This document shows, piece by piece, positions 2,751-25,929 of a stretch of DNA of 64,000 nucleotides. Numbering within the stretch: position 1 is the stretch's first letter; each line of letters opens with the position of its first letter. This DNA is from Tsukamurella sp. TY48 (lineage in GTDB: Bacteria > Actinomycetota > Actinomycetes > Mycobacteriales > Mycobacteriaceae), in assembly GCF_019656655.1 (NCBI RefSeq), contig NZ_BPMV01000002.1:930001-994000 (forward strand). The letters are read 5' to 3'. The notes below the pieces were generated by a model, which saw only the letters and a program-made list of their open reading frames with translations, searched no databases and was not told the origin of the DNA. A program made the translations under genes and the position numbers.

Positions 2751-2760
2751 CCCGGGTCTC

Positions 2761-3879: not shown

Positions 3880-3886
3880 CCGCTCG

Positions 3887-5230: not shown

Positions 5231-5262
5231 CCCGACCTTCGCCTCCGCGTTCGGTAATCGAT

Positions 5263-5865: not shown

Positions 5866-5886
5866 ACCCCGAAACGGCCGTGATGG

Positions 5887-5960
5887 TCGGGATGACAGGA
5901 TTTGAACCTGCGACCCTTCGCTCCCAAAGCGAATGCGCTACCAAGCTGCGCCACATCCCG
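5887..5960 (-). tRNA. tRNA-Pro (UGG anticodon)
   Basis: 74 nt including discriminator A. Read on the minus strand: acceptor CGGGATG pairing with CATCCCG, anticodon stem TTCGC/GCGAA with loop TTTGGGA (anticodon TGG), and T-loop TTCAAAT within a GCAGG/CCTGT stem. No CCA is encoded. All four arms fold. Confidence 0.96.
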
Positions 5961-5980
5961 CGATCGCGTGCGCGACCAGC

Positions 5981-7180
5981 CTAGACAGTACCCTCCGGCC
6001 GCTTGACCCCCAGCAGCCAGTACACGGCGATGCCGACGACCAGGGCCCAGAAGGCCGAGCCGATACCGGCCGCCGTCGTCCCCGATGCCGCGACGACGAA
6101 GGTGACGGCGGCGGGCACTCGGGCTTCCGCATCGGCCATGGCACCCGCGCAGGCGGCGGCGAAGGCGCCGACCAGTGCGACGCCGGCCACGGCCTGCACC
6201 ACCCCGTCGGGCGCCGCGAGCACCGCGGCGGTCAACCCCGTGCTGAGCACGCCGAGAACGAGGTAGCCGGCACCGGCGGAGACGCCGGCGATCCAGCGTC
6301 GCTCCTCGTCGGGACCGGCATCGGGCCCCGCGGCCAGCGCCGCACTGATCGCGGCCAGGTTGATCGCGTGCCCGCCGAAGGGCGCGCCGAGCACCGATCC
6401 GGCGCCGGTCACCGCCAGTGCCGGCCGCCACGGCACGGTGTACCCGTAGGTCGACATCACTGCGACGCCCGGGATGTTCTGCGAGGCCATGGTCACGATG
6501 TACAGCGGGAGCGCGACCCCGGTGAGCGCCTGCAGGCTCCACGCGGGCGCGGTCCACTCCAGATTCGGCACGAGCGCAGACACCGTGGGCACGGAGGACG
6601 ACCGCACCAGGGAGACTCCGATCACCGCCAGCGCCACCACGAAGGCCGCCGGAACCGCCCACCGGGGACGAACTTTCAGCAGCACCAGCCACACCACCAG
6701 CACGGGTGCCACGGCCGCGGGGTGCGCTCCGAGCGCGGACACCGGCGCGATGCACAGCGGCAGCAGCACACCCGCCAGCATCGCCTGCGCGATCGGTGCC
6801 GGAATCCGCTGCACCAGCGTGGCCAGTGCGGGCCACAGCCCCGTCAACACCAGGAACACGCCGCACACCACGAACGCTCCCACCGCGGCCGGCCATCCGC
6901 CGGCAACGGCGCCGGTGCTCACCAGGAGCGCGGCACCGGGAGTGGACCAGGCCACGGTGATCGGCATCCGGTACCGCCAGGACAGCAGCACCGTTGCCGC
7001 CCCCATCGTCACCGTGACCGCGAGCAGCCCCGACGCCGCCTGCCCCGGCGAGGCACCCACCGACCGTAATCCCGCGAGCACCACGGCGAACGCGGAGGTG
7101 AAGCCCACCAGCGCGCAGACGATGCCCGCGCCGATCGGGACCGCGGGCGACACCGTCGTTCTGACAACAGAACGTTCCAT
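5981..7180 (-). CDS. benE: BenE-family benzoate/H+ symporter-like transporter
   Basis: 399 aa, about 12 helices. The BenE signature TMASQNIPGVAVM and the later GGHAINLAAISAAL are both present. The family imports aromatic acids such as benzoate with protons; no benzoate catabolic genes are in the window, so the substrate is unproven. It is divergently transcribed from an XRE-cupin regulator with only 22 bp between start codons, and this gap plus the first 24 bases of benE carry repeated operator-like sequences. Local regulation by that regulator is a strong inference. Confidence 0.85.
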   Translation of the reverse strand: MERSVVRTTVSPAVPIGAGIVCALVGFTSAFAVVLAGLRSVGASPGQAASGLLAVTVTMGAATVLLSWRYRMPITVAWSTPGAALLVSTGAVAGGWPAAVGAFVVCGVFLVLTGLWPALATLVQRIPAPIAQAMLAGVLLPLCIAPVSALGAHPAAVAPVLVVWLVLLKVRPRWAVPAAFVVALAVIGVSLVRSSSVPTVSALVPNLEWTAPAWSLQALTGVALPLYIVTMASQNIPGVAVMSTYGYTVPWRPALAVTGAGSVLGAPFGGHAINLAAISAALAAGPDAGPDEERRWIAGVSAGAGYLVLGVLSTGLTAAVLAAPDGVVQAVAGVALVGAFAAACAGAMADAEARVPAAVTFVVAASGTTAAGIGSAFWALVVGIAVYWLLGVKRPEGTV

Positions 7181-7191
7181 GAACAGAACGT
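7157..7191. promoter_or_regulatory. Operator-like array between benE and its XRE regulator
   Basis: A dyad CGTTCTG-ACAA-CAGAACG (7157-7174) is followed by a second copy of its half-site. ACAGAACGT occurs at 7167-7175 and again at 7183-7191, a 16-bp pitch. The array overlaps the benE start codon region and abuts the TATCAT box (7191-7196) for the regulator gene, so binding could control both. Confidence 0.55.
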
Positions 7192-7196
7192 ATCAT
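7191..7196 (+). promoter_or_regulatory. -10 box for leaderless XRE-cupin gene
   Basis: TATCAT sits 6 nt before the ATG at 7203; the sequence between (GGGACC) is too short for a leader, so transcript start and translation start probably coincide. Confidence 0.5.
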
Positions 7197-7202
7197 GGGA
7201 CC

Positions 7203-7718
7203 ATGCCCACCCCCGATATCGGCGGCCGACTCCGCGAGCTGCGCACCGAACGCGGCCTGAGCCTGTCGGAGCTCGCCCGTCGCGCGGGTGTCGGCAAGGG
7301 ATCGCTCTCGGAGATCGAGGCCGGCGGTCGCAACCCCACGGTGGAGACGCTGTACTCGTTGTGCGGCCCGCTCGACGTTCCGCTCACCGCCCTGCTCGGC
7401 GAGGCACCCGGCTCGGACGGCACCGCGCACGGCGGCATGCGCACCGTTCTGCTCTCGGTCCGCCACCTGCCGCACATCACCGTGGAGGTGTTCCGGCTCG
7501 AATTCCCCGAGGGCTCCGACCACACCTCCCCAGGTCATGGCCCGGAGGTCCGGGAGCACCTCACGGTGGTCGACGGTGCGCTCCTGGTGGGCCCGGTGGG
7601 GAAGGAAACCACAGTCCAGCATGGTGATTCACACGCCTGGACGAGCGATGGCCCGCACAGATTCGCGGCGGTCGACGGCCCCGCGGAAGCCGTCGTGGTG
7701 ATCACGACACCGCGTTAG
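7203..7718 (+). CDS. XRE-family transcriptional regulator with C-terminal cupin
   Basis: 171 aa. An N-terminal helix-turn-helix (GGRLRELRTERGLSLSELAR ... GKGSLSEIEAGGRNPTVETL, residues 7-54) is followed by a small cupin-type ligand domain (GHGPEVREHLTVVDGALLV ... HGDSHAWTSDGPHRFAA). Such proteins are commonly repressors or co-activators responding to the substrate of the adjacent transporter. It is divergent from benE across a shared operator-like array. Its last 4 bases overlap the convergent lipoprotein gene. Confidence 0.85.
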   Translation: MPTPDIGGRLRELRTERGLSLSELARRAGVGKGSLSEIEAGGRNPTVETLYSLCGPLDVPLTALLGEAPGSDGTAHGGMRTVLLSVRHLPHITVEVFRLEFPEGSDHTSPGHGPEVREHLTVVDGALLVGPVGKETTVQHGDSHAWTSDGPHRFAAVDGPAEAVVVITTPR

Positions 7719-8242
7719 AAGGCGCGCGCCCCACCCGTACTGACGAACATGCCGTGTCCAGTTCCGTTGTTGGTGAACCGGGTTCCCTCGAACGAGGCCT
7801 CGATGGTCCAGCCGCGCGCGGTGTAGGTGGCGTACTCGAGCGTGGCGGGATTCGCGACACCGATATCACCCAGCACGTAGGTCAAGGTGCCGTCGCGTCC
7901 CACGTTCACGCCGTTCGCCCGATCACCGGATTCGGTTTTCGGTCCCGGCTTATCGAATTCGAGCTGGCAGCCGGCGCCGGTCGTGCTCACCCTGCAGCGG
8001 GCCTTGCCACTCTTGGTCTGCATGAAGGTGAAGCCGTTCCCGTTGTCGGGGATCGCGATCGGCGGCGCCTTCGCGCGACTGCTGGACGGCGCGGGGGTGG
8101 AGGTGGACGGCCGCACCGTGACCGTCTCGGTGCGCGGCGTGTTCGGACCGGGCTGTGCGTCCCCGCTCACCGTCGTCGAGCATCCGGCCAGGACGGCCGT
8201 TCCCGCGGCCAGCACCGCCATCACCTTGAACCGTGCGCCCAC
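7715..8242 (-). CDS. Lipoprotein of unknown function
   Basis: 175 aa. The signal peptide ends in the lipobox LAGC, so Cys is lipidated and the protein is membrane-anchored outside. A Thr/Pro/Ser linker follows, then a globular domain with a Cys pair (ARCRVSTTGAGCQLEF) and an aromatic C-terminal part. The start is set at GTG 8242, because GAGGAGG lies 6 nt upstream; a GTG at 8257 overlaps that ribosome-binding site and is less likely. Domain family not recognised; resembles generic mycobacterial Lpp proteins. Confidence 0.75.
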   Translation of the reverse strand: MGARFKVMAVLAAGTAVLAGCSTTVSGDAQPGPNTPRTETVTVRPSTSTPAPSSSRAKAPPIAIPDNGNGFTFMQTKSGKARCRVSTTGAGCQLEFDKPGPKTESGDRANGVNVGRDGTLTYVLGDIGVANPATLEYATYTARGWTIEASFEGTRFTNNGTGHGMFVSTGGARAF

Positions 8243-8298
8243 CGACGACCTCCTCACGTTCCGACCGACTCGTACGTTCTCGACCTTCTGTGGCCAGC

Positions 8299-9075
8299 CT
8301 AGGTGCTCGGCCGCTCCAATCCGAGGATCGGACGCCCGTCGGGCCCCGTCGTCGCGTGCACGCGAGCGCCGAAATGCTCGCCGATCAGCTCGGCGGAGAG
8401 CACCTCCGACGGGCCGCCGTACGCCGCGACGGCACCGGATGCCAACAGCACCAATCGATCCGCGTACTGTCCGGCCAGCGTGAGGTCGTGGATGGTGGTG
8501 ATCACGGTGAGACGATCGTCACGGCGCAGTGTGTCGAGCAGTTCCATCGCCTGCTGCTGGTGACCGATGTCGAGTGCGGTGGTGGGTTCGTCGAGGAGCA
8601 GGACCGGCGCCGGTTGCGCGAGCGCCCGCGCCAGCACAACCCGTTGCCGCTCGCCGCCGGACAGGCGATCCAATCGCCGGGGAGCGAAGTCGGCCAGGCC
8701 CAGCCGGTCCAGCGTCTCGCCCACGATCCGGCGGTCCGCGGCGCTCTCGCGCCCCAGGTACGAGATGTACGGCGAGCGACCCAGAAGCGCGTAGTCGAAG
8801 ACCGTCATACCTGCGGGGAGGTTCGGCGACTGCGGCGCGGAGGCGACCAGTCGCGCCCGCTCGCGCGGTGCGAGCGAGCGGAGGTCGACACCGTCGATCG
8901 TGATGCTCCCGTCGCCCGGCACCAGGCCGAGGACCGCCCGCAACAGTGTCGACTTGCCGGCGCCGTTCGGACCGATCACGGCCGTCCACTCCCCCGTCGG
9001 CGCATCGAGGGAGACCTGGCGCAGCACCGGTCGGCCGTCGAGCCGCACACTGAGCGAATCGATGTGGACGGTCAT
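8299..9075 (-). CDS. ABC transporter ATP-binding protein (FecE/BtuD type)
   Basis: 258 aa. Walker A GPNGAGKST at residues 35-43, signature LSGGERQR, Walker B VLLLDEPTTALD, and the switch histidine in TIHDLTLA. Energises the adjacent FecCD-type permease in the membrane. Starts with ATG overlapping the permease stop by 4 bases (ATGA), the third gene of a binding-protein / permease / ATPase operon. The family serves iron-siderophore, haem or cobalamin import. Confidence 0.92.
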   Translation of the reverse strand: MTVHIDSLSVRLDGRPVLRQVSLDAPTGEWTAVIGPNGAGKSTLLRAVLGLVPGDGSITIDGVDLRSLAPRERARLVASAPQSPNLPAGMTVFDYALLGRSPYISYLGRESAADRRIVGETLDRLGLADFAPRRLDRLSGGERQRVVLARALAQPAPVLLLDEPTTALDIGHQQQAMELLDTLRRDDRLTVITTIHDLTLAGQYADRLVLLASGAVAAYGGPSEVLSAELIGEHFGARVHATTGPDGRPILGLERPST

Positions 9076-10115
9076 GCCTCCCCCCGTCCTCGCATGGTGC
9101 GCAGGACGAGCACGAAGAACGGGCCGCCCACGAAGGCGGTGACCACGCCCAGCGGCAGCTCGCCCGGGGCGACCACCGTCCGCGCGATCACGTCCGCGAC
9201 CTCCAGGAACGCGGCACCACCGAGGAGCGAGAGCGGGAGCACCACCCGGTACGAGGTCGATCGCGCCCAGCGACGGACGATGTGCGGCACCACGATGCCC
9301 ACGAATCCGATGAGCCCGCCCAGGGCCACCGCGGACGCCGTCGCCAGCGAGGCAGCAGCGAGCACCGCCAACCGGACGCGTCCGGCGGAGACGCCGAGCG
9401 CAGCGGCCTCGTCGTCGCCCACACCCAGCACATCCAGCAACCGGCCGTGCAGCAGCAGCGCGATCACCGACACCGCCGCATACGGCGCCACGGCCACCAG
9501 GTGCGGACCGTCGGCCGCACCCACCCCGCCGAGCACCCACGAGTAGATGCGCTGCAGCTCCCGCGAATCGAGCTGCATGAGGAAGGTCTGCACGGCCCCG
9601 AGGAAGGCGGACACGGCGACGCCCGCGAGCATCAGCGTGGCCGATCCACCGCCGCCCGCGGTGTTGCCCAACAGGTACGCCAGTGCCACTCCGGCGAGCG
9701 CACCGACGAACGCCGCCACGGGTACCGTCGCCGCCGGATCGCCGGGCAGCAGCGCGATCACGGCGGTGGCACCCACACCCGCCCCGGCGGCCGCGCCGAG
9801 CAGGTACGGATCGGCCAGGGGGTTGCGGAAAACGCCCTGATATCCGGCGCCGGCGATCGCGAGCAGTCCGCCCACCAACGCCGCCGCGGCGACGCGGGGC
9901 AGCCGCACCTCGATGAGCAGGTTCTTCTCCAGCTGCGTGAGGCCGGAATCGACACGCACGAAGGGGATTCGGTCGGCAAGCTCCAGCAGGACGCCCCGAA
10001 GCGGCAGATCTGCGGCGCCGACCAGCAGCCCGAGCGCGGTGGCGGCGAGCAGCACGACGAGCGCCCCGAGCAGGGTGCTCGGACGCAGGCCCGAGGCGCG
10101 CGACGGTGCGCTCAC
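9072..10115 (-). CDS. FecCD-family ABC transporter permease
   Basis: 347 aa with about ten helices. Family motifs: RLPRVAAAALVGGLLAIAGAGYQGVFRNPLADPYLLG near residues 70-106, and GFVGIVVPHIVRR near residue 275, which contacts the ATPase. The start is GTG at 10115, overlapping the binding-protein stop (GTGA), and its end overlaps the ATPase start. One permease gene is present, consistent with a homodimer. Substrate class is iron complex, haem or cobalamin. Confidence 0.92.
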   Translation of the reverse strand: MSAPSRASGLRPSTLLGALVVLLAATALGLLVGAADLPLRGVLLELADRIPFVRVDSGLTQLEKNLLIEVRLPRVAAAALVGGLLAIAGAGYQGVFRNPLADPYLLGAAAGAGVGATAVIALLPGDPAATVPVAAFVGALAGVALAYLLGNTAGGGGSATLMLAGVAVSAFLGAVQTFLMQLDSRELQRIYSWVLGGVGAADGPHLVAVAPYAAVSVIALLLHGRLLDVLGVGDDEAAALGVSAGRVRLAVLAAASLATASAVALGGLIGFVGIVVPHIVRRWARSTSYRVVLPLSLLGGAAFLEVADVIARTVVAPGELPLGVVTAFVGGPFFVLVLRTMRGRGEA

Positions 10116-11035
10116 CCGCCCGCCGGGACCTTCCGCGCGGCGTCGGCCACCGCGGCGCCGACGGCGCGGTAGAAGTCGGGCAGCCGCGGACCCCAGCGCG
10201 AGGTGATGTCGGCGTCCAGGGTGAGCACCGCACCGTCCCGCACGGCGCGCAGATCGCGCCAGCCCGGTCGCTGCGCGACGGTATCGGGGCTCTGGCCGCA
10301 GCACTGGCCGTCCGCGAGGAAGACGAGGTCGGGATCGCCCTGGAGCAGCGCCTCGCGGGACAACTGCGGGTACCCGGACCGCTGCGCGTCGGCGGCATCG
10401 GCGATGTTGCGCAGGCCGAAGGCGCCGTACACCTGGCCGATGAAGGTCATGGAAGTCACGGTGAACAGCTGGGGGTCGAGTTCGTGGAAGTAGCTGACCT
10501 GCCGGGCCGGCCGCGGTGTGGCGGCGAGGGTGGCCTCGATGGACGAGCGCATACCGGTCACGAGCCGCCGCGCCTCCATCGTCTTGCCGGTGGCATCGCC
10601 GAGGTCGAGGATCTGCTCGTAGGCGTCCTCGAGGTTCTTCGCGGCCGGCTCCACCAGCACGGGCACGTTCAGCTTCTGCAGCGCGGCCACGATGCCGTCC
10701 TGATCGCCGGAGACCACGACGAGATCGGGGTTGTACTTCGCGATCGCCTCGACATTGGGCTTGAAGCCGGACAGCTTCGTGCGCGGCGCCTCGGCCGGAT
10801 AGGTCGACTGATCGTCGACGGCCACCACCTGTGCGCCCGCGCCGATCGCGAACAGCGTCTCGGTGTGGGTGGGGGCGAGCGAGACGATGCGCTGCGGATT
10901 CGCCGGAACAGCGACCGGTCCGCTCGGTGCGTCGACGGTGACCGTGGCCCGTTCGCCCTGTTGGCTCGCGCTGCCACAGCCCGCGATCAGCCCGAGCGCC
11001 AGTAGCAGCGGAACGAGCACCCTGGGACGCAACAT
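10112..11035 (-). CDS. Lipoprotein substrate-binding protein of FecB/BtuF type
   Basis: 307 aa. Signal peptide with lipobox LIAGC, then a class III binding-protein fold: RIVSLAPTHTETLFAIGAG near residue 50, and NVEAIAKYNPDLVVVSGDQ. A C-terminal segment contains LADGQCCGQS, a vicinal cysteine pair that I have seen in some BtuF-like proteins and that could contact a metal or cofactor. The start is ATG 11035, preceded by GAAAGGAGAAG. First gene of the importer operon. Cobalamin or haem are plausible ligands; no riboswitch is visible upstream. Confidence 0.88.
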   Translation of the reverse strand: MLRPRVLVPLLLALGLIAGCGSASQQGERATVTVDAPSGPVAVPANPQRIVSLAPTHTETLFAIGAGAQVVAVDDQSTYPAEAPRTKLSGFKPNVEAIAKYNPDLVVVSGDQDGIVAALQKLNVPVLVEPAAKNLEDAYEQILDLGDATGKTMEARRLVTGMRSSIEATLAATPRPARQVSYFHELDPQLFTVTSMTFIGQVYGAFGLRNIADAADAQRSGYPQLSREALLQGDPDLVFLADGQCCGQSPDTVAQRPGWRDLRAVRDGAVLTLDADITSRWGPRLPDFYRAVGAAVADAARKVPAGG

Positions 11036-11078
11036 CGCCTTCTCCTTTCGACCGCGACCACCAGTGTCGCAAACCCCG

Positions 11079-11084
11079 TAGTCT
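11079..11084 (+). promoter_or_regulatory. -10 box for leaderless peptidase E gene
   Basis: TAGTCT fits TANNNT with exactly 6 nt before the ATG at 11091, within the 55-bp divergent gap shared with the ABC operon. Confidence 0.45.
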
Positions 11085-11090
11085 GCGGCG

Positions 11091-11729
11091 ATGAACCTGT
11101 TGCTGCTGTCCCTGAACGCGGGGGCGCTCCCGGACTTCCTGCTGCGGCACACGGGACGGACGCCCAGCGGAATCCGGATCGGTTACATCGACGATGCCAC
11201 CCGGCTGGTGGCCGACGCTCCCTACAACGCCTTCGAGTGGAATCAGCTGACCGACCTGGGCTTCCGGCTCACGCGGATGTCGGCGCGCAAGTACACCAAC
11301 GCCCGCGATTTCGATTCCGATCTGGATTCGGTGGACGCCGTGTACCTCGCCGGCGGTCACACCTTCGCCCTGCTCGGGTCGCTGCAGAGCAACGGCACGG
11401 GCGAGGTGCTGACGCGGCGTGTCCGCGAGGGACTGCCGTACATCGGACTCAGCGCCGGCTCCGTGGTGGCGGGACCGCACCTCGAACCGGTGGTTCCCCT
11501 CGACGATCCGACCGAGGTGCCCGAGGTCACCGACTTCACCGGGCTCGGCCTCGTGGACACCGTGGTGATCCCGCACGCCGACGGTGCGCTGCCGCCGTAC
11601 CCGCTGTCGCTGATCGACGAGGTGGAGCGCACCTACGGCGACCGGTACCCCCTGACCCGCCTCAACGACGATCAGGCGCTGCTGGTGGAAGACGGTGTGA
11701 CGACACTCATCCCCTCGCGAATCACGTAG
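11091..11729 (+). CDS. pepE: Peptidase S51, dipeptidase E-like
   Basis: 212 aa, typical family length. The nucleophile elbow GLSAGSVVAG (near residues 122-131) and YLAGGHTF upstream are family hallmarks, with PHADGA supplying the probable catalytic histidine. Peptidase E hydrolyses dipeptides with N-terminal aspartate in the cytosol. No signal peptide. Divergent from the ABC importer. Other S51 members include cyanophycinase, but cyanophycinases are longer. Confidence 0.8.
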   Translation: MNLLLLSLNAGALPDFLLRHTGRTPSGIRIGYIDDATRLVADAPYNAFEWNQLTDLGFRLTRMSARKYTNARDFDSDLDSVDAVYLAGGHTFALLGSLQSNGTGEVLTRRVREGLPYIGLSAGSVVAGPHLEPVVPLDDPTEVPEVTDFTGLGLVDTVVIPHADGALPPYPLSLIDEVERTYGDRYPLTRLNDDQALLVEDGVTTLIPSRIT

Positions 11730-11779
11730 CGGCTGCAAAGGTCTTCCCGCGCACCGGGTACACCGGGTAGACAGTGGGT

Positions 11780-12512
11780 ATGTCCGATCTCGCCGCGCTC
11801 GCGTCCGCACTGAAGTCACTCCACATCAAGGGCGATCCGGTGGTCTTGCCCACCGTCTGGGACGCCTGGTCGGCCCGGTCCGCATCGTCGCGGTTCGCCG
11901 CGCTCACCGTGGGCAGCCACCCGCTCGCCGAGTCGATCGGCCGAGCCGACGGCGAGGGCATGACCTTCTCGGAGGCGATGTCGCGGGTCTCCGAGATCAC
12001 TCGCGCCGTGCACGTCCCGGTGTCGGTCGACATCGAGTCGGGGTACGGCGAGCCGCCCGCCGTCCTGATCGACGGTCTCCTGGCCGCTGGGGCGGTGGGC
12101 TTGAACATCGAGGACACCGTGCACAAGGAGGACGATCGGCTGCGGGAGCCGCAGGAGCACGCCGACCTCGTCGCCGCCCTGCGTGCCGCTGCGGACGCCG
12201 CGGGCGTCCCGGTGGTGATCAACGCCCGCACCGACGTGATCCTGCGCAAGGACGGCGATCCGGGCGACCGCGTCGATCGCGCGATCGCCCGGCTGAAGCT
12301 CTGCGCCGAGGCCGGGGCGGATTCGCTGTATCCGGTGGGCTACCACGACGATGAGGTGCAGCGCCGGCTCACGGACGAGCTGCCGCTGCCCGTGAACGCC
12401 ATCGCGCATCCCGCCACGGGCGATCTGGCGCACCTCGCCTCGCTCGGCGTGGGCCGTATCAGCTTCGGTCCGCTGCTGCAGTCGGCACTCGCCGAGCGCG
12501 CGGCGGAGCTGT

Positions 12513-12529
<17 letters not shown>
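11780..12529 (+). CDS. Isocitrate lyase/PEP mutase superfamily protein
   Basis: 249 aa. TIM-barrel lyase with VDIESGYGEPP (family VD.E.G.G), GLNIEDT, and NARTDVI. The central catalytic loop Cys motif of true isocitrate lyases (KKCGH) is absent, so this belongs to the PEP-mutase / carboxyphosphonoenolpyruvate-like group with unknown substrate, possibly a 2-methylisocitrate-like C-C lyase. ATG at 11780 is chosen over the in-frame GTG two codons earlier. Convergent with the S9 peptidase gene, overlapping it by 17 bases. Confidence 0.8.
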
Positions 12530-14459
<1,930 letters not shown>

Positions 14460-14529
14460 GGCGTGTCCTTCCGTCGCGGTCACGTCCCATCGGAAACCAT
14501 GCCGCTGCGGCACAGTCAAGCGACGGACT

Positions 14530-15045
14530 TCAGACCGGTCGCCGCATCCGCAGTTCGTGGCAGTCCCACTCCGCGTCGTGACGCGCGGCCCCGTCGAGGT
14601 CGAAACCGTGCTTGCGGTAGAACGCGATGGCCCGCCCGTTGCCGGCGGCGACCCAGAGATACGCCGGGGTGCCGGGGGCGACGACGGCGTCCAGCAGCCG
14701 GCTCGCGACGCCCTGCCCGTGATGGCCGGGGAGCACGTTGAGCGACCACAGCTGGGTGCCGACCGGGGCATCGGCGTCGCGTGCCGGACCGCCGGTCGCC
14801 ATGGCGATGATCTCGCCGCCCGCCACGTCCACCGCGCAGCGGGTACGGATGCCACGGGACTGCGCATCGTCGCGCTGCGCCACGATGGCGGTCCAGCCCG
14901 GAATTCGATCCGCTGCGGTCAGCCCGTCGAGCTTCACCTGGTCGACCAGCCCCGGATAGGTGTTCTTCCACACGGCGACGTGCACCGCGGCGAGCCGAGG
15001 TGCGTCTCCGTCGTCCAGTGGGCGGATCTCGTACCCGGTCATCAT
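14530..15045 (-). CDS. GNAT family N-acetyltransferase
   Basis: 171 aa. N-terminal IRPLDDGDAPRLAAVHVAVWKNTYPGLV is typical of GNATs. Acetyl-CoA binding loop VLPGHHGQGVASRLLDAVV, and the C-terminal NGRAIAFYRKHGFDLDG. Substrate unknown. Two adjacent ATG codons (15045, 15042) are both possible starts. Lies 70 bases upstream of the S9 peptidase gene on the same strand and may be cotranscribed with it. Confidence 0.85.
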   Translation of the reverse strand: MMTGYEIRPLDDGDAPRLAAVHVAVWKNTYPGLVDQVKLDGLTAADRIPGWTAIVAQRDDAQSRGIRTRCAVDVAGGEIIAMATGGPARDADAPVGTQLWSLNVLPGHHGQGVASRLLDAVVAPGTPAYLWVAAGNGRAIAFYRKHGFDLDGAARHDAEWDCHELRMRRPV

Positions 15046-15111
15046 CCGATCGTGGCCGCTGCACCGCGTGGATTCAAGCGAAATCGGGCGCGGCCGCCGC
15101 ACGCCGATAAT

Positions 15112-15141
15112 GGAATCCCACACTCGTTCGAGTAGGATTCC
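15112..15141. terminator. Hairpin in the gap between GNAT and acyltransferase genes
   Basis: GGAATCC (15112-15118) pairs with GGATTCC (15135-15141), and inside it ACTCG pairs with CGAGT across a TT loop; the bulge between is 3 versus 1 base. It lies between divergent starts, so it is more likely a transcript leader structure or operator of the acyltransferase gene than a classical terminator. Confidence 0.3.
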
Positions 15142-15166
15142 TTACCAACGAATTGAGAGGTCCGGG

Positions 15167-15226
15167 GTGAAGACGCAGCCCGGGACACGCAGCACGCACG
15201 TGGAGCAGAACGTCGATACACGATAA
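15167..15226 (+). CDS. Possible 19-codon leader peptide
   Basis: GTG at 15167 follows GAGAGG with 6 nt spacing and reads VKTQPGTRSTHVEQNVDTR before TAA at 15224. It ends 37 bases before the acyltransferase start and is in another frame. The only support is its ribosome-binding site and position; it could equally be chance. Confidence 0.2.
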   Translation: MKTQPGTRSTHVEQNVDTR

Positions 15227-15263
15227 GAAGTCACCAGCGTCCCCCGGCACGGCTCCCGTCAGC

Positions 15264-16553
15264 GTGAAGCCCCGCAGGGCGCTCACCGCCGACCTGGTGC
15301 GCGTGCTGTTGTTCACCGGCGTCGTGGTGGCGCACTGCGTGAACTACATCAACTTCACGCCCGATGTGGTGCGCCCGGCCGGCCTGATCGCCACCCTGCT
15401 GCACCTCACGCGGTACGGGTTCGTGGCAGTCACACTGTTCGTGCTGGTGCTCAGCATGCGCGGGCGGGACATGTCCCCGACCCAGTTCTGGCGCCGGCGG
15501 TTCGGTCTCGTGGTGGCGCCCTACCTGGTGTGGACGGTGGTGTACTCCATCACCGACCACCTGCTCATCGAGGACAATCCGTTCCCCTCGCCCGGACGGT
15601 TCTTCGGTGACCTGGCGCGCACCACACTCACCGGCGATGCGAAGTATCAGCTCTACTTCCTGCTGATCTCGATGCAGATCTACCTGGTGTTCCCCTGGCT
15701 TTCCCGCTTCATGAAACGGACCTCCGGGCATCCGTGGTTGGTGCTGTCCGCGGCGGCCGTGATCCAGGTCGCGGTGTTCGCCTTCTACCAGTACTTCCCG
15801 GAGCCCGAGGGGCGCGGCTGGGAGACCTTGTTCAACCACATGTGGAAGCTGCTTCCCATGTACGCGTTGTTCATCGCTATCGGCATGCTCGCGGCGCAGC
15901 ACTACGATGCGGTCTCTGCCTGGCTCCGAGCGCGCGCCGTGCCGGTGGTCATCGTGTGCGGGCTGGCGGCGGCGTTCAGCATCGTCGCGTATCTGCGCGC
16001 CACCGAACCCGGCGATGTCCCCGAGGATGCCGCCACCGCGTGGAATCCCACGCTGCTCCCGTGGCTCGTCGGTGGCCTCGTCCTGCTCTGGCTCGCCGCC
16101 ATGAAGTGGGACGATCTGCGCACGGCGGGGTTGCCCGTCGGAGAGCGCGCGGTGACCTACGCCACCATCCGGGCTTTCGGCGCCTTCGCCGTGCACCCGC
16201 TGGTCCTCGACCTGCTCGGCTACCTCGGCTTCTACCCGCTCCTGTACGAGTGGTTCCCGGCATCCGCGACGCTGCGCACTCTGACCCTCGTCGTGGTGGT
16301 GCTGGCCATCTCGCTGCTGTTCATCGACACCGTGCTGCGGACGCCACTGAGCCGCTGGGTGGTGGCCCGCGATCGGATTCCGTTGCGCCGCCCGAAACCG
16401 GAAAAGCTAGCGCCGGTGGTCGACGAGACGATTGCCGCGGGCTCGGTACCGTGCCATGACGCCGACGAGGACTGCGAGCACGAGGGCGATCGCCCAGGCA
16501 CCGGCCGTGAACTTCATGGCCAGCACCACCACGGCCGCCACGCCCGTCAGTAG
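15264..16553 (+). CDS. Acyltransferase family 3 membrane protein
   Basis: 429 aa with about ten helices. N-terminal ALTADLVRVLLFTGVVVAHCVNYINF carries the catalytic-type R and H of acyltransferase-3 proteins, and GRFFGDLARTTLTG and HPLVLDLLGYLGF follow. Such enzymes O-acylate extracytoplasmic sugars, glycans or lipids. The start is GTG 15264; no ATG is available in frame. The last 49 codons lie antisense over the 3' end of the APC permease gene and read a polar His-rich tail, so the functional C-terminus is probably near residue 380. Confidence 0.75.
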   Translation: MKPRRALTADLVRVLLFTGVVVAHCVNYINFTPDVVRPAGLIATLLHLTRYGFVAVTLFVLVLSMRGRDMSPTQFWRRRFGLVVAPYLVWTVVYSITDHLLIEDNPFPSPGRFFGDLARTTLTGDAKYQLYFLLISMQIYLVFPWLSRFMKRTSGHPWLVLSAAAVIQVAVFAFYQYFPEPEGRGWETLFNHMWKLLPMYALFIAIGMLAAQHYDAVSAWLRARAVPVVIVCGLAAAFSIVAYLRATEPGDVPEDAATAWNPTLLPWLVGGLVLLWLAAMKWDDLRTAGLPVGERAVTYATIRAFGAFAVHPLVLDLLGYLGFYPLLYEWFPASATLRTLTLVVVVLAISLLFIDTVLRTPLSRWVVARDRIPLRRPKPEKLAPVVDETIAAGSVPCHDADEDCEHEGDRPGTGRELHGQHHHGRHARQ

Positions 16554-17762
16554 CGCACCGAAACCGTTGAGCGCGGCCCGCACTCGCCAATCGGGGCCAC
16601 GCACCGCGGACCAATGCCGGACCATTCCCGCCTGCGCCAGGGTGAAACCGACGAACACGCCGATCGCGAAGAGCGGGACGAGGGCGTTCATATCCGCACC
16701 CGAGAGCACCAGCAGCACGGCCGCGGTGGCGGCGAGCGCGAGCACACTCACCGTGTACACCCCGCGCTCGTTGCGGCGGGTGAGGATCTCGGGGAGGTAG
16801 CCGTCGCGGGCCACCACGCACAGCAGCGTCGGGAGCCCACCGAACGAGGTGTTGGCGGCCAGCGCCAGCAGCAGCACTGTGGCGCCCTGGACCAGAAAGT
16901 ACCCCACGCCGTGACCTAGCGATCCCTCGGTGACCTGCGCGAGAACCGTCACCCCGTCCTGCGGGACCACGCCGTACCGTTCGATGAGGGCGGCGATGCC
17001 CAGCATCATCGTGCCGAGCAGAACGCCCAGGATCACCTCGGTGCGCTGCGCCCGCCGCACGCGCGGCTCCCGGAACTCGGGAACGGCATTGGCGATGGCC
17101 TCCACCCCCGTGAGTGCGGAGCAACCGCTCGCGAAGGCCTTGAGCAGCAGCAGGACTCCGACGGTCTGCGTCGCCTCCGGCGAGACTGCCGGGGCCATCG
17201 ACTGGCCGCCCGTGACGAGGCCGACCACGATCACCGTGAGGACCGAGCCGACGAACAGCACCGTGGGGACGGCGAGCGCGTAGGCGCTCGCGGTGAGGCC
17301 GCGCAGGTTGAGTGCGGTGATCACGACGAGCACCAGGAGGCCGATCTCGACGAGGTACGGTCGGGTCTGCGGCACCGCGGAGGCCAGCGCCGCCACACCC
17401 GCGGCCACGGATACCGCGACGTTGAGCACGTAGTCGACCACCAGCGAGGCCGCGGCGAGCAGTGCCGACGGACGCCCCAGCCGGGCGCGCGCCACACCGT
17501 ACGAGCCTCCACCCTCGGGGTAGGCGCGGATCACCTGTCGGTAGGAGAAGACGAGCACCACGAGCAGCACCACGATCGCCGCACTCACGGGCAGGGTGAA
17601 ACCGAGCCCGACGGTGCCGGCCGTCGCGAGGACGAGCGCGATCGCCTCCGGGCCGTAGGCCACCGACGCCATCGCATCGAGTGACAGTCCGGCAAGGCCC
17701 GACGAGGTGGTCAAACGGCGACGCTCCGGGGCGTCCAGCGGGGGCCGATCGGCGCGCAACAT
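16407..17762 (-). CDS. APC superfamily permease, KimA/YdaO-like
   Basis: 451 aa, 12 helices. The first helix region GLAGLSLDAMASVAYGPEAI and YPEGGGSYGVARARLG match the KimA-like branch of the amino acid-polyamine-organocation superfamily, members of which take up potassium. Bacillus KimA has an extra cytosolic C-terminal domain of roughly 150 residues; here the protein stops soon after helix 12. Amino-acid transport cannot be excluded. Start candidates GTG 17771 and ATG 17762 differ by three codons. A 30-bp palindrome lies 51 bases upstream. Confidence 0.75.
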   Translation of the reverse strand: MLRADRPPLDAPERRRLTTSSGLAGLSLDAMASVAYGPEAIALVLATAGTVGLGFTLPVSAAIVVLLVVLVFSYRQVIRAYPEGGGSYGVARARLGRPSALLAAASLVVDYVLNVAVSVAAGVAALASAVPQTRPYLVEIGLLVLVVITALNLRGLTASAYALAVPTVLFVGSVLTVIVVGLVTGGQSMAPAVSPEATQTVGVLLLLKAFASGCSALTGVEAIANAVPEFREPRVRRAQRTEVILGVLLGTMMLGIAALIERYGVVPQDGVTVLAQVTEGSLGHGVGYFLVQGATVLLLALAANTSFGGLPTLLCVVARDGYLPEILTRRNERGVYTVSVLALAATAAVLLVLSGADMNALVPLFAIGVFVGFTLAQAGMVRHWSAVRGPDWRVRAALNGFGALLTGVAAVVVLAMKFTAGAWAIALVLAVLVGVMARYRARGNRLVDHRR

Positions 17763-21372: not shown

Positions 21373-21454
21373 CTCTGAGGTCCGTGGACAAGCCCAGGTC
21401 CGCGCACAGGGCCGACCCTTTGGGTCTGGAAGTCCGGCGGCGTGACTGAGTGCG

Positions 21455-22195
21455 GTGGATACTGGCGTCATGAAGGTGCTCACCGAGCACGAAGGCGGGG
21501 CGGTCAGCCGCGTCTACCTGCCCTGCACGGCTGGCGCCGAAGTCGAGCCGGTCAACCGGTACCTCGCACACCTGATCGACGCCGCGTACAGCCCGAATAC
21601 CGTCGCTGGGTATGCCTACGATCTGCGGCACCTCCTGACGTTCCTCGCCGCCAATGGCCTGAGCATCAACGACTTCCGGCCATTGACCGCGTTCGAGCTT
21701 CTCGGCTATCTGCGCCGGATCCCGTCCCGGCGTCCTGCGCAGCGTCTCGGGCTGGCGGTCGCTACCGATCGCGGGCGGTTGCTGGCGCCGTCGTCGGTGC
21801 AGCGGATCCTCGCGGCGACGTCCAGCTTCTACGAGTGGGCGATCGCGGTCGAGTACTACACCGCTGCCAGCGACTACGCCCGCAGACTCCGACAGCGGCT
21901 CGCCGTCGAACAGCAGCTGATCGCCGACGCGCAGCACCGAGGATGGGACCGGGAAGAAGAGCGCACCAACGATCCGCTGCGCGAATTTCAGAGCTACTGG
22001 CAGAGCCGAAGAACACGCGCCGGTAACGTCGGCTCACATGAGCCTCCCCAAGTTGTTCATAGGGTCGTCCGCGGAGGGCAAACCTGTCGCCCACAACCTC
22101 CAGGCGGTACTCGAAGAACGCCAAATCTGCGAGGCCACGGCATGGGATCAAAACGTGTTCGCGCCAGGAAGTTACGCACTCGACGCGCTCCTTGA
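21455..22195 (+). pseudogene. Tyrosine recombinase, N-terminal remnant fused to unrelated sequence
   Basis: From ATG 21470 the frame encodes a SAM-like integrase core-binding domain (SPNTVAGYAYDLRHLLTFLAANG, then APSSVQRILAATSSFYEWAI). After about 21855 similarity to integrases is lost and the frame continues as AASDYARRLRQRLAVEQQLIADAQHRGWDRE. That segment resembles a short accessory protein often found with actinobacterial recombinases. From about 22030 the frame is merely an overlap with the TIR gene. The catalytic domain is absent here; a matching C-terminal half lies at 23926-24669. Non-functional as it stands. Confidence 0.75.
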
Positions 22196-22766
22196 AGTCG
22201 CCAGCGGGTACGACTTTGCGGTCTTGATCGCGTCGCCGGACGATACGACCGACAGCCGTGGCGAGAGCAAGCCGTCAGCACGGGACAACGTCATCTTGGA
22301 GCTGGGGCTCTTCATTGGCGCCCTGGGCCGCGAGCGGGCATACCTGCTCGCAACTGGCGACCTCAGGCTGCCCTCGGACACGTTTGGCCTCACGCGACTT
22401 AGCTACCAGGGCCGCGCCGACGACAATCTGCGCGCCGCCGTCAATCCCGCTGTCCTTCAGCTTGAAATCCAGGTCAAGAAGCTCGGCGTCCGTCACGCCT
22501 CCGCCACCGTTGAAGCGAGCGACAGCAAGCTCGAGCGCGAACTGGAGCGCCTCTTCCTTAACGCCGAGGCGCAGGGATGGACGGTCAAGTACAACGGCCC
22601 CACTACTGTCCGGTTGGTGTCGCCGGGCGGGCGCACGTACTCGTTTCAGAGACGTACGCCAGCAATGACTCGGGAAAACCTGCGAGCATTTGCGGCTGAG
22701 CTTCGCGCTGGGGGACTCCGGGTCAACAGCGCGCTCTTGTCGTCACCTGCCGAGTCTCCGCTATGA
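22038..22766 (+). CDS. TIR-like (PF10137-type) nucleotide-binding protein with HicA-like C-terminal domain
   Basis: 242 aa. Residues 4-150 match the predicted nucleotide-binding TIR-like domain: KLFIGSSAEG, FAVLIASPDD, then ARDNVILELGLFIGALGRER, whose Glu is the expected NAD-hydrolysing residue, and LPSDTFGL. Residues 165-230 (EAQGWTVKYNGPTTVRLVSP ... LRAFAAELRAGGLRV) resemble HicA/YcfA small RNA-binding folds but lack the catalytic His. TIR-like proteins of this group are NADase effectors in anti-phage systems. No partner sensor gene is adjacent. Flanked by recombinase fragments. Confidence 0.75.
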   Translation: MSLPKLFIGSSAEGKPVAHNLQAVLEERQICEATAWDQNVFAPGSYALDALLEVASGYDFAVLIASPDDTTDSRGESKPSARDNVILELGLFIGALGRERAYLLATGDLRLPSDTFGLTRLSYQGRADDNLRAAVNPAVLQLEIQVKKLGVRHASATVEASDSKLERELERLFLNAEAQGWTVKYNGPTTVRLVSPGGRTYSFQRRTPAMTRENLRAFAAELRAGGLRVNSALLSSPAESPL

Positions 22767-22773
22767 GTGGCAT

Positions 22774-22829
22774 GTCCCCCTGCAGGGAGGTGGCTACCGT
22801 GCGGCATAACGCCAGCTGTGCAGGGGGAC
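22774..22829 (+). terminator. Long-arm hairpin after the TIR-like gene
   Basis: GTCCCCCTGCA (22774-22784) pairs perfectly with TGCAGGGGGAC (22819-22829); the 34-nt loop has a small inner TGGC/GCCA stem. It starts 8 bases past the stop. Could be a terminator, or a mobile-element end. Confidence 0.45.
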
Positions 22830-23043
22830 GACGCTCCAACCTGGGCACCACCAGGAACACCCCGAAGGGCCGCCGCGCCTCGACCAGCATCCTCACATCG
22901 CGTATGTCCTCGGCATCGCGCTTCGGACCCCGCCCTCAAGACGGTATGTGTAGCAAAAACCCGCTCTGTGGCTCCGCTGGCTTGGATATCTTAGCCCCAA
23001 CTCTCGCAATTCAGACGCAGTCTGGAACGCACGTCCACAGCAC
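22830..23043. other. Non-coding stretch, probable relic
   Basis: No convincing gene on either strand. The minus strand has a short open segment around 22830-22900 reading MLVEARRPFGVFLVVPRLE, which is protein-like but has no start context or family match. The right part (about 22950-23040) is AT-richer and could hold the promoter of the next gene. Confidence 0.3.
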
Positions 23044-23835
23044 ATGGATGTAGCTAGGGGCGAGTATCACGCGCGATGGGCGGGGTTTGCAAGCTCAGTC
23101 GACCGCCTGGCGGTGGCGATGGCAGATCCTGACGCCTTCCCGACGGCCCCCGGCGGCACCTTAGGTGTGGACGATCAACTGTTGCATCCTTTTCGAGCGA
23201 GCGAGGCGGTCCGCCACGTTATCAATGCGGCGATCGATCAGCTGCACGGGATCAAAACGACAGTAGTCGATGCCCAAGTGATTCACCTTGGCGTCAGCGC
23301 GACACTGGCGCGAGGAGCGCTGGAGAACGCTGCGACCGGACTATGGCTGATCGGTCCCGCCGATCGGACGGAACGGCTCAAGCGCGTTCTTAGGTGGCAC
23401 GCACAGGACTACTACGACCGGAACGCATATGTGGTTGAGGCGGGGACACGCAACCCGCAGAGGGCTGCACGATTCGCCGAGCATTCCCGCATACTGCAGG
23501 AAGTAGTCAGCAGAAATGGTTGCGCTCCATTGCCATCCGGAGGCGTCAAGATCACGGAACCCTTGCGCGGATGCGCGGACGACACTGAGGTTCTGGTCAT
23601 GCAGAAGTGGATGATAGCCTCCGGGTTCGCACACGGCCGCCCGTGGGCACACCAGGGCTTCCTTGATCACCAGTTGATCAGCGAGAACGAGCGTCTGCCG
23701 ATCTACACTTACGCGCCACGGCGGGACGTGACCCAAGATCTGCCGTTAGCCGCACTAGCACTCCTCGAGGACCTGCTCCGTCTACGTGAAACTCGCGCGT
23801 CTCCCGCATCCGAGGAACCAGGATTGTCCACATAA
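23044..23835 (+). CDS. Uncharacterised alpha-helical protein
   Basis: 263 aa, family not recognised. Mostly helical, with LGVSATLARGALENAATGLWLIGPADRTERLKRVLRWHAQDYYDR in the middle and a conserved-looking SGFAHGRPWAH motif near residue 196. The R/E-rich helix with an aromatic 'ENAATGLWL' pattern is reminiscent of DUF5677-type HEPN-like proteins, but the R-x4-6-H catalytic pattern is not evident. ATG 23044 is the only reasonable start. Lies between the TIR-like gene and recombinase fragments; its stop overlaps the start of the serine recombinase remnant. Confidence 0.6.
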   Translation: MDVARGEYHARWAGFASSVDRLAVAMADPDAFPTAPGGTLGVDDQLLHPFRASEAVRHVINAAIDQLHGIKTTVVDAQVIHLGVSATLARGALENAATGLWLIGPADRTERLKRVLRWHAQDYYDRNAYVVEAGTRNPQRAARFAEHSRILQEVVSRNGCAPLPSGGVKITEPLRGCADDTEVLVMQKWMIASGFAHGRPWAHQGFLDHQLISENERLPIYTYAPRRDVTQDLPLAALALLEDLLRLRETRASPASEEPGLST

Positions 23836-23940
23836 TCGAGCGCGACCTCATCAGCGAACGCACCCGCGCAGCCCTCGCAGCCAAGAAGGCCCAGGGCGTG
23901 CGGATCGGCGCGCCCGAGCGGATGAGCCGAGACGCCAGCC
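23823..23940 (+). pseudogene. Serine recombinase (resolvase) fragment
   Basis: In the frame of GTG 23898, the segment IIERDLISERTRAALAAKKAQG followed by VRIGAPER matches the helix after the catalytic domain of resolvase/invertase-type serine recombinases. Neither the catalytic serine domain nor the DNA-binding end is nearby. Beyond 23940 the frame is antisense-like noise over the integrase fragment. A short deletion remnant. Confidence 0.65.
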
Positions 23941-24669
23941 ACCGGCGAGACCGCAGCCACCGGACCCCACGCCGTCTACGACTCGCCCAAGACCCGCCGA
24001 TCCCGCAGGCGCGTGCCGCTGACGGCTGCGACGGTTGCGATCCTCCGCGATTACTTGACGCCGCCCGAGCCGCGCGACGGACCCGACCCCCGATTCAACG
24101 CGGGAGTCGCCACGCTAGCCCCACGGACGGACGCCCGGAATCGGACTCACCCGCGAGCGTGCGACCCCGACGCGCCCCTGTTCCCGAACATGCGGCTCAT
24201 CGCAGACCCACCGACCGGCAGGCGCGCACCCCGCCACGAAACCGGACCCCGCGCGGGCAAGCCGATGCCCCCCGAAGAACAGGCCGCACGCCGCACCGTC
24301 GAAGAAGCACAAGCCCGCCTGGAACTCGACTGGACCGCGGTACTGCTCCACAAGACCTACTACAAGGCCGTCTTCCGCCCCGCGCTCCTCCGAGCCACCC
24401 TGGCCCTCGTGGCCGACGGGCTCCGCCCGATCCCAGCGGAAGCAACCGCCCACAGCCTTCGACACACGTACGCCTCGTTCTGTGTCAGCGCAGGCCTGCA
24501 CCCGAAGCAGATCGCGGACTTCATGGGCCACGCCTCCGTGAACACTACGATGGGCATTTACGCCCACCTATTCGAGGATGACCACACCGAGGCCATGAGT
24601 GCCCTCGGTAGCGTCGGTGCTACCCGGCCGCGCCCGAACAACGTCACCCCGATTCGGGGCTGGGGTTAG
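23926..24669 (+). pseudogene. Tyrosine recombinase, C-terminal catalytic remnant
   Basis: The frame opens just after a stop at 23923-23925 and reads PHAVYDSPKTRRSRRRVPLTAATVAILRDYL, the beta-hairpin part of an integrase catalytic domain, then HSLRHTYASF (H-x-x-R), QIADFMGHAS and the tyrosine in IYAHLF. The first catalytic Arg (RxGE region) is missing, with the N-terminal domain lying 2 kb upstream. GTG 24013 could serve as a start but would yield an inactive fragment. Its stop overlaps the next convergent gene by 4 bases. Confidence 0.8.
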
Positions 24670-25724
24670 TTCGACCTAAATCGATCTAGCACACCAATCT
24701 GATCGAGATACTGAAGCATGCCTTCGACGTATGTGCTGGGAATGTTGCCTCGAGGGATTACGGTACCAATAAACTTTCGAGCCCCTCGCACTTCCAGCCG
24801 CCAGTGGCCACGCAGGTGTCCGGGATAACTCAGATTCAACTTCTCTTCCAGGGTCAGTGGGTCCTGCAGCCACGACAAATATACTGCTGGCACTTCATAA
24901 GCGCCAACGAAATTGCGCAAAACAATCGCGTCCACTCTGCTTACGATGCCCTGACAAACTGCCATGTAAGATAGGAGCCTATCGTCTGATAGTGCGAGAG
25001 GTGCGGACGCTTTGTCTAACCACGACGCCGTCAGATTGGTTATCGCGCTCGACTCATTCCAGGTCGAACCAACATGAAATGCCCCGAGACCGTGCGCTGC
25101 AGAGTTCCGAATTTCGCGCATCTTCTCGAGATTCGACTCGTTCGCTCGAAACACATCTGCAACGTCGTCGCCCAGCCAGTCTCTGATGGCAGCGATTCGC
25201 TTGCTCCATTCACCCTTAACGAGATCGACCGTTGGCGGCACTCTTAATCGATACAAGTGTCTGCGATCCAAAAGTTCAAGACCATCCACTTTTTTCGGGA
25301 ACCCTGGAATCAATAGAGGGTCCGACAGCATTGCCAACCGTGCAATCTCGTCAACGTAGCGTTCTAACGCTGACACAACGTGCACTAGCGCCGTTAATCT
25401 CATGTGCCCCTCCGCGCTTCTGACTGGGGCACGAAGGCCAGTTACGGTTGCGCCGAGAGGACGCTTCCAGACATCTTCTAGACGCAACGCCTCAGCTGGT
25501 GCGCGATCGCCATCTCCCGCTTTCTCTGCGGAAGCGATCTCATAGCTACATGCCTTAAATGCAAGCCGGGAATGCCAATATGTTTCATTGGCTAGGGTGG
25601 AGTCATCACGAAATCGGTACGCAGGCAGACTCGCAAAACTGGGGCACAGTGCGCGGTCGAACTGTTCAGCCAAGCGTTGGTAATCGCCATTCGCAGACAC
25701 CCTCGACACAGTAGCAAGACACAC
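24666..25724 (-). CDS. Candidate HEPN-domain protein of unknown function
   Basis: 352 aa. The motif MREIRNSAAHGLG near residue 205 is R-N-x3-H, the form of the R-x4-6-H active site of HEPN ribonucleases with the customary polar residue after Arg. Helices LTALVHVVSALERYVDEIARLAML fit an all-alpha HEPN bundle. The C-terminal 120 residues are not recognised. Two 60-base blocks I counted (24901-24960, 25561-25620) are each 52% GC, far below the neighbours, indicating recent transfer. The start is uncertain (several GTG codons near 25724). Confidence 0.6.
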   Translation of the reverse strand: MCLATVSRVSANGDYQRLAEQFDRALCPSFASLPAYRFRDDSTLANETYWHSRLAFKACSYEIASAEKAGDGDRAPAEALRLEDVWKRPLGATVTGLRAPVRSAEGHMRLTALVHVVSALERYVDEIARLAMLSDPLLIPGFPKKVDGLELLDRRHLYRLRVPPTVDLVKGEWSKRIAAIRDWLGDDVADVFRANESNLEKMREIRNSAAHGLGAFHVGSTWNESSAITNLTASWLDKASAPLALSDDRLLSYMAVCQGIVSRVDAIVLRNFVGAYEVPAVYLSWLQDPLTLEEKLNLSYPGHLRGHWRLEVRGARKFIGTVIPRGNIPSTYVEGMLQYLDQIGVLDRFRSN

Positions 25725-25810
25725 CCAGCACGGTCACCCGGGCGGGTACGGGACACCTCCGGACGCGGTGCCGTCGCGGTGTCGATTGCCTCGGGTCGAC
25801 CCTGAGCAAG

Positions 25811-25853: not shown

Positions 25854-25858
25854 GATTG

Positions 25859-25929
25859 AGCGGGCGACGGGAATCGAACCCGCGTAGCTAGTTTGGAAGA
25901 CTAGGGCTCTACCATTGAGCTACGCCCGC
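25859..25929 (-). tRNA. tRNA-Gly (UCC anticodon)
   Basis: 71 nt with discriminator U. Minus strand: acceptor GCGGGCG/CGCCCGC, anticodon stem CTAGT/ACTAG with loop CTTCCAA (anticodon TCC), and T-arm GCGGG-TTCGATT-CCCGT. No encoded CCA. Its 3' end faces the accessory region, the normal orientation for an integration target. Confidence 0.96.

Follow-up and report, generated by a model that had tools for sequence, protein, structure and literature searches.

Here we describe a gene of Tsukamurella sp. TY48, located at positions 22038..22766 of the forward strand in a 64,000-nt stretch of contig NZ_BPMV01000002.1, which encodes a TIR domain and a HicA-like domain in a single polypeptide and is followed by a conserved structured element just behind its stop codon. 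The whole stretch is called the window below, and coordinates are counted on its forward strand. The best explanation that we can offer, with a probability of about 0.4, is that the protein is a TIR NADase under the control of a dead HicA-like RNA-binding domain and of a cognate RNA encoded directly behind the gene, the RNA-bound state being inactive, and that the pair acts in abortive infection. An earlier interpretation made from the letters alone, hereafter the sequence-only reading, had predicted the two protein domains and a single-gene device built of them.

The fusion protein and its family

Eight TIR-HicA-like fusions, including that of the window, were collected and aligned, and all of them are actinobacterial. 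The features of the window gene are as follows.

22038..22766 (+): complete open reading frame (ORF) of the TIR-HicA-like fusion, with an ATG start and 242 amino acids plus stop codon; all eight fusions aligned
22038..22487 (+): TIR domain, residues 1-150 (PF10137 match at 5-124), with W36, F41 (BB-loop) and the catalytic Glu88 invariant in 8/8 fusions
22299..22301 (+): codon of the catalytic Glu88, by alignment with E86 of chain 9lmq_A
22488..22529 (+): linker, residues 151-164, of variable length and with little conservation (mean pairwise identity 27%)
22530..22724 (+): HicA-like domain of the double-stranded-RNA-binding-domain (dsRBD) fold, residues 165-229, in which Thr190 replaces the catalytic His; Q179, W181, T189, R192, R212, R216 and R228 are invariant in 8/8 fusions
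22725..22763 (+): C-terminal tail, residues 230-242, with an ESP motif in 5/8 fusions

The predicted TIR-like domain with its glutamate was confirmed by profile searches. PF10137, the TIR family of CAP12 and Pycsar effectors, matches residues 5-124 with 101.8 bits (cut-off 24.7, E 3.1e-29), and the Glu of the motif ARDNVILELGLF, found in the window protein, is residue 88. The solved-structure relatives of this domain are PycTIR and Cap12. In the alignment with chain 9lmq_A, the counterparts of Glu88, Trp36 and Phe41 are E86, W34 and F39, respectively. We infer this chain to be ElSTING from the agreement of the residue numbers W34, F39, T45 and E86; PMC12421889 calls E86 of ElSTING catalytic and also describes W34 and F39. 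The match begins at residue 5, and the PADLOC PycTIR model was matched from its position 152 on only; the window protein has no N-terminal nucleotide-binding domain. Likewise, a STING domain was not detected: the NCBIfam Cap12 models reached 109.4 and 87.9 bits of the 450 required, and their best stretches (residues 4-144 and 5-136) cover the TIR part only. The TIR domain of the fusion is predicted to be an NADase.

The C-terminal 70-75 residues or so have no Pfam match at E<=5 (PF07927 included) and none of their own in NCBIfam or PADLOC. As the direct hhalign comparison with PF07927 also gave only 5%, the domain cannot be assigned to this family directly by sequence; the link to HicA goes via a family of stand-alone HicA-like proteins. 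The profile of the C-terminal domain was matched to that of seven such proteins (alignment A7, which excludes the G514 protein and a near-identical copy in G941) with a probability of 97.4%, a value equalled by 0/60 column shuffles, and the stand-alone family was matched to canonical HicA (alignment A12, comprising 11 of 16 HicA matches) with 93.2%. Conversely, the profile of the seven stand-alone proteins, with no fusion inside, matches 8/8 fusions (19.8-39.1 bits) and 0/9 other proteins carrying this TIR domain, a comparison set of eight plasmid-encoded proteins, drawn from the 968 matching plasmid records, and one protein of genome G061, not each checked with PF10137. The AlphaFold2 prediction of the domain is an alpha-beta-beta-beta-alpha fold (predicted local distance difference test, pLDDT, of 80); its top structural match is PDB entry 1whz (Foldseek, VIA), and the top rows of the VIA search include the toxin-antitoxin or HicAB entries 5yrz_B, 6g26 and 6hpb_A. 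A direct PHROG scan of four fused domains was weak: the Agromyces domain matched phrog_2089 (E 0.12), that of the window matched phrog_22149 (E 0.031), and two had no match.

Thus, the C-terminal part is a HicA-like domain and not an ordinary extension of the TIR fold, a possibility that is ruled out because the TIR models stop near residue 150 and the part behind them has homologues among independent proteins. Where canonical HicA has its catalytic His, the window protein has Thr190, and T, V or A stands there in 8/8 fusions; the sequence-only reading had anticipated the lack of the His in the window protein. The C-terminus is net positive in 8/8. Both halves of the protein and the absence of the His are genuine, and the match to the stand-alone family is far beyond chance.

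The first whole-protein relative of the window protein was found on a Curtobacterium plasmid (48.5% identity over 95%), and searches with the C-terminal domain added an Agromyces metagenome assembly and genomes G423, G752, G1283, G1287 and G1145. The fusion is rare in the genome samplings, which overlap, so that their counts are not additive, and in which the best candidates per genome (e.g. 12 or 16) were scored in protein scans: it was found in 2/394 genomes of the class and 2/397 genomes of the order, the window included in each, in 4/398 genomes of the Agromyces family, and in 1/316 genomes of the phylum sampling, namely the window itself. In the class sampling 15/394 genomes pass at E 0.01; the fusions among them are those of the window and G423 only, G680, G685, G514 and G523 carry small stand-alone proteins, and the remainder look like chance. 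A scan of genome_contigs with strict patterns gave 75 stretches, one of which was confirmed.

In 8/8 fusions the two domains are joined by a variable linker. Mean pairwise identity is 55% in the TIR domain and 50% in the C-terminal part, against 27% in the linker, and the pairwise identities of the two domains correlate with each other (r 0.90, 28 pairs). The rate of non-synonymous substitution (dN) is lower than that of synonymous substitution (dS) in 16/16 computable values from 10 pairs of five fusions (4/20 were not computable). A single origin of the fusion is weakly supported by the TIR tree, which is compatible with it in 48% of bootstrap trees. The fusion, its domain identities, its catalytic residues and the lost His are established by computation as conserved across the family.

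The nearest stand-alone relatives of the HicA-like domain were found in phages. In alignment A7, 5/7 proteins have Tyr at the place of the HicA catalytic His. The HicA-like genes of G680 (two-gene unit at 5403-6133 (-) of locus L031) and G685 (two-gene unit at 307-1049 (-) of locus L032) are each followed by a gene with helix-turn-helix (HTH) or excisionase-like PHROG matches, and that of phage prophi91-4 (two-gene unit at 3980-4953 of locus L033) by a gene annotated as antitoxin; the relative in FlameThrower has no same-strand partner directly 3' of it. Query P0001 and alignment A3 retrieved nothing from viral_contigs, and a search for the C-terminal domain in phages gave no match. The genome of the window itself also encodes a stand-alone HicA-like protein (1471-1677 of locus L028, at about 1394830 of contig C1), which has His at the catalytic place (SGH), a weak match to PF07927 under the cut-off (22.7 bits) and a tRNA-Gly-like sequence at a distance of ~1.5 kb.

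The structured element behind the gene

A similarity directly 3' of the gene surfaced from the all-against-all comparison of neighbouring ORFs, followed by reading of the downstream DNA. In the window it comprises the following parts.

22774..22885 (+): conserved structured RNA element, separated from the stop codon by 7 nt, identified by covariation and covariance-model searches
22774..22784 (+): 5' arm of stem 1, 11 pairs with 22819-22829
22819..22829 (+): 3' arm of stem 1, pairing with 22774..22784
22830..22834 (+): 5' side of the closing helix, pairing with 22875-22879; 4/5 pairs form in the window
22832..22840 (+): CGCTCCAAC, invariant in 7/7 elements
22840..22844 (+): 5' arm of stem 2, pairing with 22851-22855
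22851..22855 (+): 3' arm of stem 2, pairing with 22840..22844
22875..22879 (+): 3' side of the closing helix, pairing with 22830..22834

The element is present in 7/8 fusion loci, where it is 92-112 nt long and begins at the 5th to 18th nucleotide past the stop codon. Stem 1 is followed by the invariant CGCTCCAAC and stem 2; behind these come a third part, which varies, and a closing stretch that reads CGCCGCGC in 5/7 elements. Between 8 and 10 of 10 positions of stem 1 are paired in each locus, while the sequence of the stem differs between lineages and the interval that it encloses is 15 to 36 nt long. Two rows of alignment A14, which is untrimmed, have stem 1 out of register. In alignment A15, which has seven rows, 19 pairs in three helices are formed in 96.2% of cells; 11/19 pairs show two-sided changes (17 cells) and none shows one-sided changes. 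On four of five covariation measures the observed value was reached by 0/500 shuffles, and slid controls of the alignment were 39-56% paired. RNAalifold, run without a given structure, recovered these three helices; its 23 pairs include 13 with two-sided changes.

Covariance-model searches gave the second line of evidence. Model R2, built from five loci, recovered both left-out loci, that of the window with 57.0 bits (E 1e-8) and that of G1287 with 49.6 bits (E 2.9e-7), the next-best match having 21.2 bits. On 1.04 Mb from 100 sources, model R1 found its own seven rows, one copy of the element per locus, and then two matches of 22.3 bits (E 0.39); on 16 genomes of the genus, with the best 150 candidates per genome scored, it found the window only. 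No convincing match was obtained in G1145, the most divergent fusion (best 12 bits, on the opposite strand). A loose pattern selected 71 stretches of viral_contigs, of which 68 were scored with R1, yielding two at 22.3 bits (E 0.39), and the other three with R2, yielding none at E<=1; blastn gave no match to the element in plasmids. As the single-sequence fold of the window region is ordinary (z 0.37), the case for an RNA rests on covariation and the held-out search, by which the RNA structure of the element and its position are established computationally. The element is presumably transcribed as RNA.

Rfam has no family at threshold in 21400-25800 of the window. A sub-threshold match on the minus strand of stem 1 (22775-22828 (-)) to MAT2A_C, a family of the MAT2A 3' untranslated region (32 bits vs 47), is read as chance on a GC-rich hairpin. 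A role of stem 1 as a terminator was also considered and rejected, no terminator-like site being present in 21950-23100.

The element modifies the proposal of a one-chain, single-gene device. The joining of the TIR and HicA-like domains in one chain stands, but the description as a single gene is probably incomplete, because in 7/8 loci the gene is directly followed by a covarying RNA element, which had escaped the sequence-only reading.

Proposed RNA gating and its alternatives

Oligomerisation via a second domain is described as turning on the NADase of PycTIR (PMC11224242) and the TIR NADase of STING (PMC12421889). The fusion has an RNA-binding type of domain in second place and a conserved RNA of its own behind the gene; what explains both most simply is a ribonucleoprotein, with the TIR protein controlled by the RNA. 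PycTIR of Pycsar (pyrimidine cyclase system for antiphage resistance) and the Cap12 TIR-STING of CBASS (cyclic-oligonucleotide-based antiphage signalling system) share with the fusion the PF10137 subfamily and the joining of TIR to one regulatory domain, and Cap12 chain 9lmq_A also shares the catalytic Glu and the BB-loop aromatics. However, their regulatory domain is a cyclic-nucleotide domain or STING, whereas that of the fusion is HicA-like, no cyclase is seen nearby by a crude test, and a structured RNA lies directly downstream. That the protein is an ordinary CBASS or Pycsar effector responding to a cyclic nucleotide, as the common TIR subfamily might suggest, is thus very improbable: the STING domain and the N-terminal nucleotide-binding domain are both absent, and a crude pattern search found no CD-NTase-like motif in the eight loci, the pattern for cyclases covering the seven loci other than the window.

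In type III toxin-antitoxin systems such as ToxIN, a structured RNA beside the toxin gene restrains the toxin, and tandem repeats in the RNA antitoxin together with a ToxN-type RNase are the hallmark of the type. The fusion loci resemble these systems in the putative RNA adjoining the gene in 7/8 of them and, by analogy, in the restraint logic proposed here; they differ in having a TIR effector instead of a ToxN-type nuclease and a single element behind the gene, with no tandem repeats. It is this analogy with RNA antitoxins that makes us favour inhibition over activation. The HicA-like domain would bind the hairpins of the element without cleaving them, and the RNA-bound protein would be kept unassembled and inactive, like a type III toxin under its RNA antitoxin. 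Infection might then reduce, cleave or displace the RNA, through phage nucleases, shut-off of host transcription or competing phage RNA, upon which the released TIR domains would assemble head to tail and degrade NAD+, and the cell would halt before phage production. As a defence system in this full sense, with its own structured RNA holding the TIR NADase and loss or alteration of that RNA in infection leading to NAD+ depletion, RNA gating is a tentative proposal, short of even odds.

The evidence for the pair of protein and RNA, i.e. the covariation and the held-out model search, would serve equally well a scheme in which the RNA is an activator or a scaffold required for assembly, and infection alters the RNA or adds a ligand. 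PycTIR, which is turned on by a ligand (PMC11224242), also speaks for it. The evidence is silent on the direction of control, and a constant activator would require further control; we consider this scheme improbable. Somewhat better placed, although still unlikely, is the explanation that the HicA-like domain senses a phage molecule (RNA that is double-stranded or structured, or an antitoxin that normally binds HicA-like toxins of phages and for which the domain is an integrated decoy), while the downstream RNA affects only the stability or expression of the mRNA. The occurrence of the nearest stand-alone relatives in phages speaks for such a sensor, as do the HTH or excisionase-like genes that follow the HicA-like genes of G680 and G685, the annotated antitoxin in prophi91-4, the lack of a gene common to all eight loci, and the sensor domain of PycTIR, which is reported to trigger TIR assembly (PMC11224242). 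Yet it leaves unexplained why an RNA of conserved shape and changed stem sequence stands behind the gene in 7/8 loci, no trigger is known for it, and the FlameThrower relative lacks a same-strand partner directly behind. The downstream element could also work as DNA, for example as a site of recombination, of attachment or of regulator binding that is carried along with the gene. The gene does lie in a mobile hotspot, where remnants of integrases are found close to a tRNA-Gly gene, none of the other 15 genomes of the genus has a DNA match to it, and inverted repeats in DNA sites covary too; but three helices joined by invariant sequence, a stem 1 interval of 15 to 36 nt, unlike a fixed dimer site, and a position on the strand of the gene just past the stop codon in 7/8 loci make this explanation quite improbable.

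Several observations weigh against RNA gating or the evidence for it. Alignment A15 was trimmed by eye to begin at stem 1, and its fifth covariation measure, the number of further pair types, was reached by 64/500 shuffles. All computable dS values exceed 1, which indicates saturation. Finally, weakly similar genes lie just upstream of the fusion in G423 (8000-8575 of locus L030) and in G1145 (7780-8328 of locus L048), the locus without the RNA element (31% over 107 amino acids, E 9e-5), which makes them candidates for a protein partner in some loci.

With HicA toxins (PF07927) and the phage-type HicA-like family phrog_2089, the fusions share the predicted alpha-beta-beta-beta-alpha fold and clear profile homology to the stand-alone proteins, but the catalytic His is absent from 8/8, the domain stands behind a TIR domain, and no HicB-type partner was found beside the window gene. 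An SMC-HicA fusion (Gerdes 2024, PMC10865869, class 14) likewise has its HicA domain C-terminal in a larger, possibly defensive protein, with SMC instead of TIR as partner and a canonical dsRBD configuration described there. The CapRel-type fused toxin-antitoxins, named in the same paper, are similar in joining effector and sensing domain in one chain; their effector is another one, and their C-terminal domain is said to act as antitoxin and as sensor of infection at once (PMC10865869).

Literature searches on TIR with HicA, dsRNA-binding domains or RNA antitoxins, and on this TIR family, revealed no such fusion among the matches listed, most subscription papers lying outside their coverage; this agrees with the sequence-only reading, which knew of no description of it. 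The 14 HicA contexts distinguished in PMC10865869 include an SMC fusion, and the word TIR occurs 0 times in the main text of that paper. Known triggers of TIR defence proteins are cyclic nucleotides (PMC11224242) and phage proteins (SpbK, Thoeris), and a TIR system gated by RNA would be of a new kind, should it be shown to exist. In it, NAD+ depletion would be tied directly to the state of the RNA in the cell, and a toxin domain would have become a sensor, so that HicA-like domains would have a function that needs no RNase activity. Since the system is small (one gene and about 110 nt), it is testable in laboratory strains.

Genomic surroundings

The neighbouring genes of the loci were scanned in part. 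Besides the conservation of the fusion at eight loci, the sequence-only reading had raised its proximity to defence genes, and known or candidate defence genes were indeed found near 4/8 loci. Neither of the two outcomes that would have spoken against the sequence-only reading, a C-terminal part that merely extends the TIR fold or homologues without this part and away from defence genes, was observed. In the Agromyces assembly (11062-14392 of locus L029) an IetA/IetS (IetAS) pair lies downstream of the fusion and the RNA element; the Curtobacterium plasmid has an ApeA-HEPN gene (PDC-S58) near the fusion, G1145 an Orf5/mREase_IV gene, and G752 the SIR2 gene PDC-S65 and a type IV restriction enzyme. 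The latter belong to a dense defence island (2370-17222 of locus L039) that also includes an SLFN-g3 helicase-type gene and, as judged by eye, a MazG-like gene. No clear defence gene was seen among the neighbours scanned in the window, G423, G1283 and G1287, apart from a weak HEPN match in the window.

No partner gene is common to 8/8 loci among ORFs of at least 80 codons within 8 kb (E<=1e-4), and no HicB-type antitoxin was found in the four ORFs adjoining the window gene. Some genes are shared pairwise: a resolvase by Curtobacterium and G1287, an XRE-type regulator by Curtobacterium and G1145, other ORFs by G1283 and G1287, and a short piece by Agromyces and G1283.

The window gene sits in a mobile hotspot, between recombinase remnants near a tRNA-Gly gene.

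21455-22037: recombinase remnant
23838-23930: recombinase remnant
23935-24669: recombinase remnant
25858-25929: tRNA-Gly

They comprise the N-terminal piece of one tyrosine integrase, a fragment that by eye resembles a serine recombinase, and the C-terminal part of another tyrosine integrase, which has a long relative in G949; the two integrase pieces that flank the gene look like two different integrases. No convincing att-type repeats were found at the tRNA-Gly. The tRNA-Gly region matches in 15/15 other genomes of the genus, in none of which the DNA of the window gene has a match, and the G+C content of the gene is 63.2% vs 68.8% for the window. On the 3' side of the RNA element lies an ORF of 263 amino acids (23044-23835 (+)) with no match in Pfam, NCBIfam or PADLOC. 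Further downstream, 24666-25724 (-) encodes a HEPN-type protein (RiboL-PSP in Pfam, 17.9 bits, under the cut-off; RTasHEPN in PADLOC, E 1.3e-9), which is possibly another defence gene.
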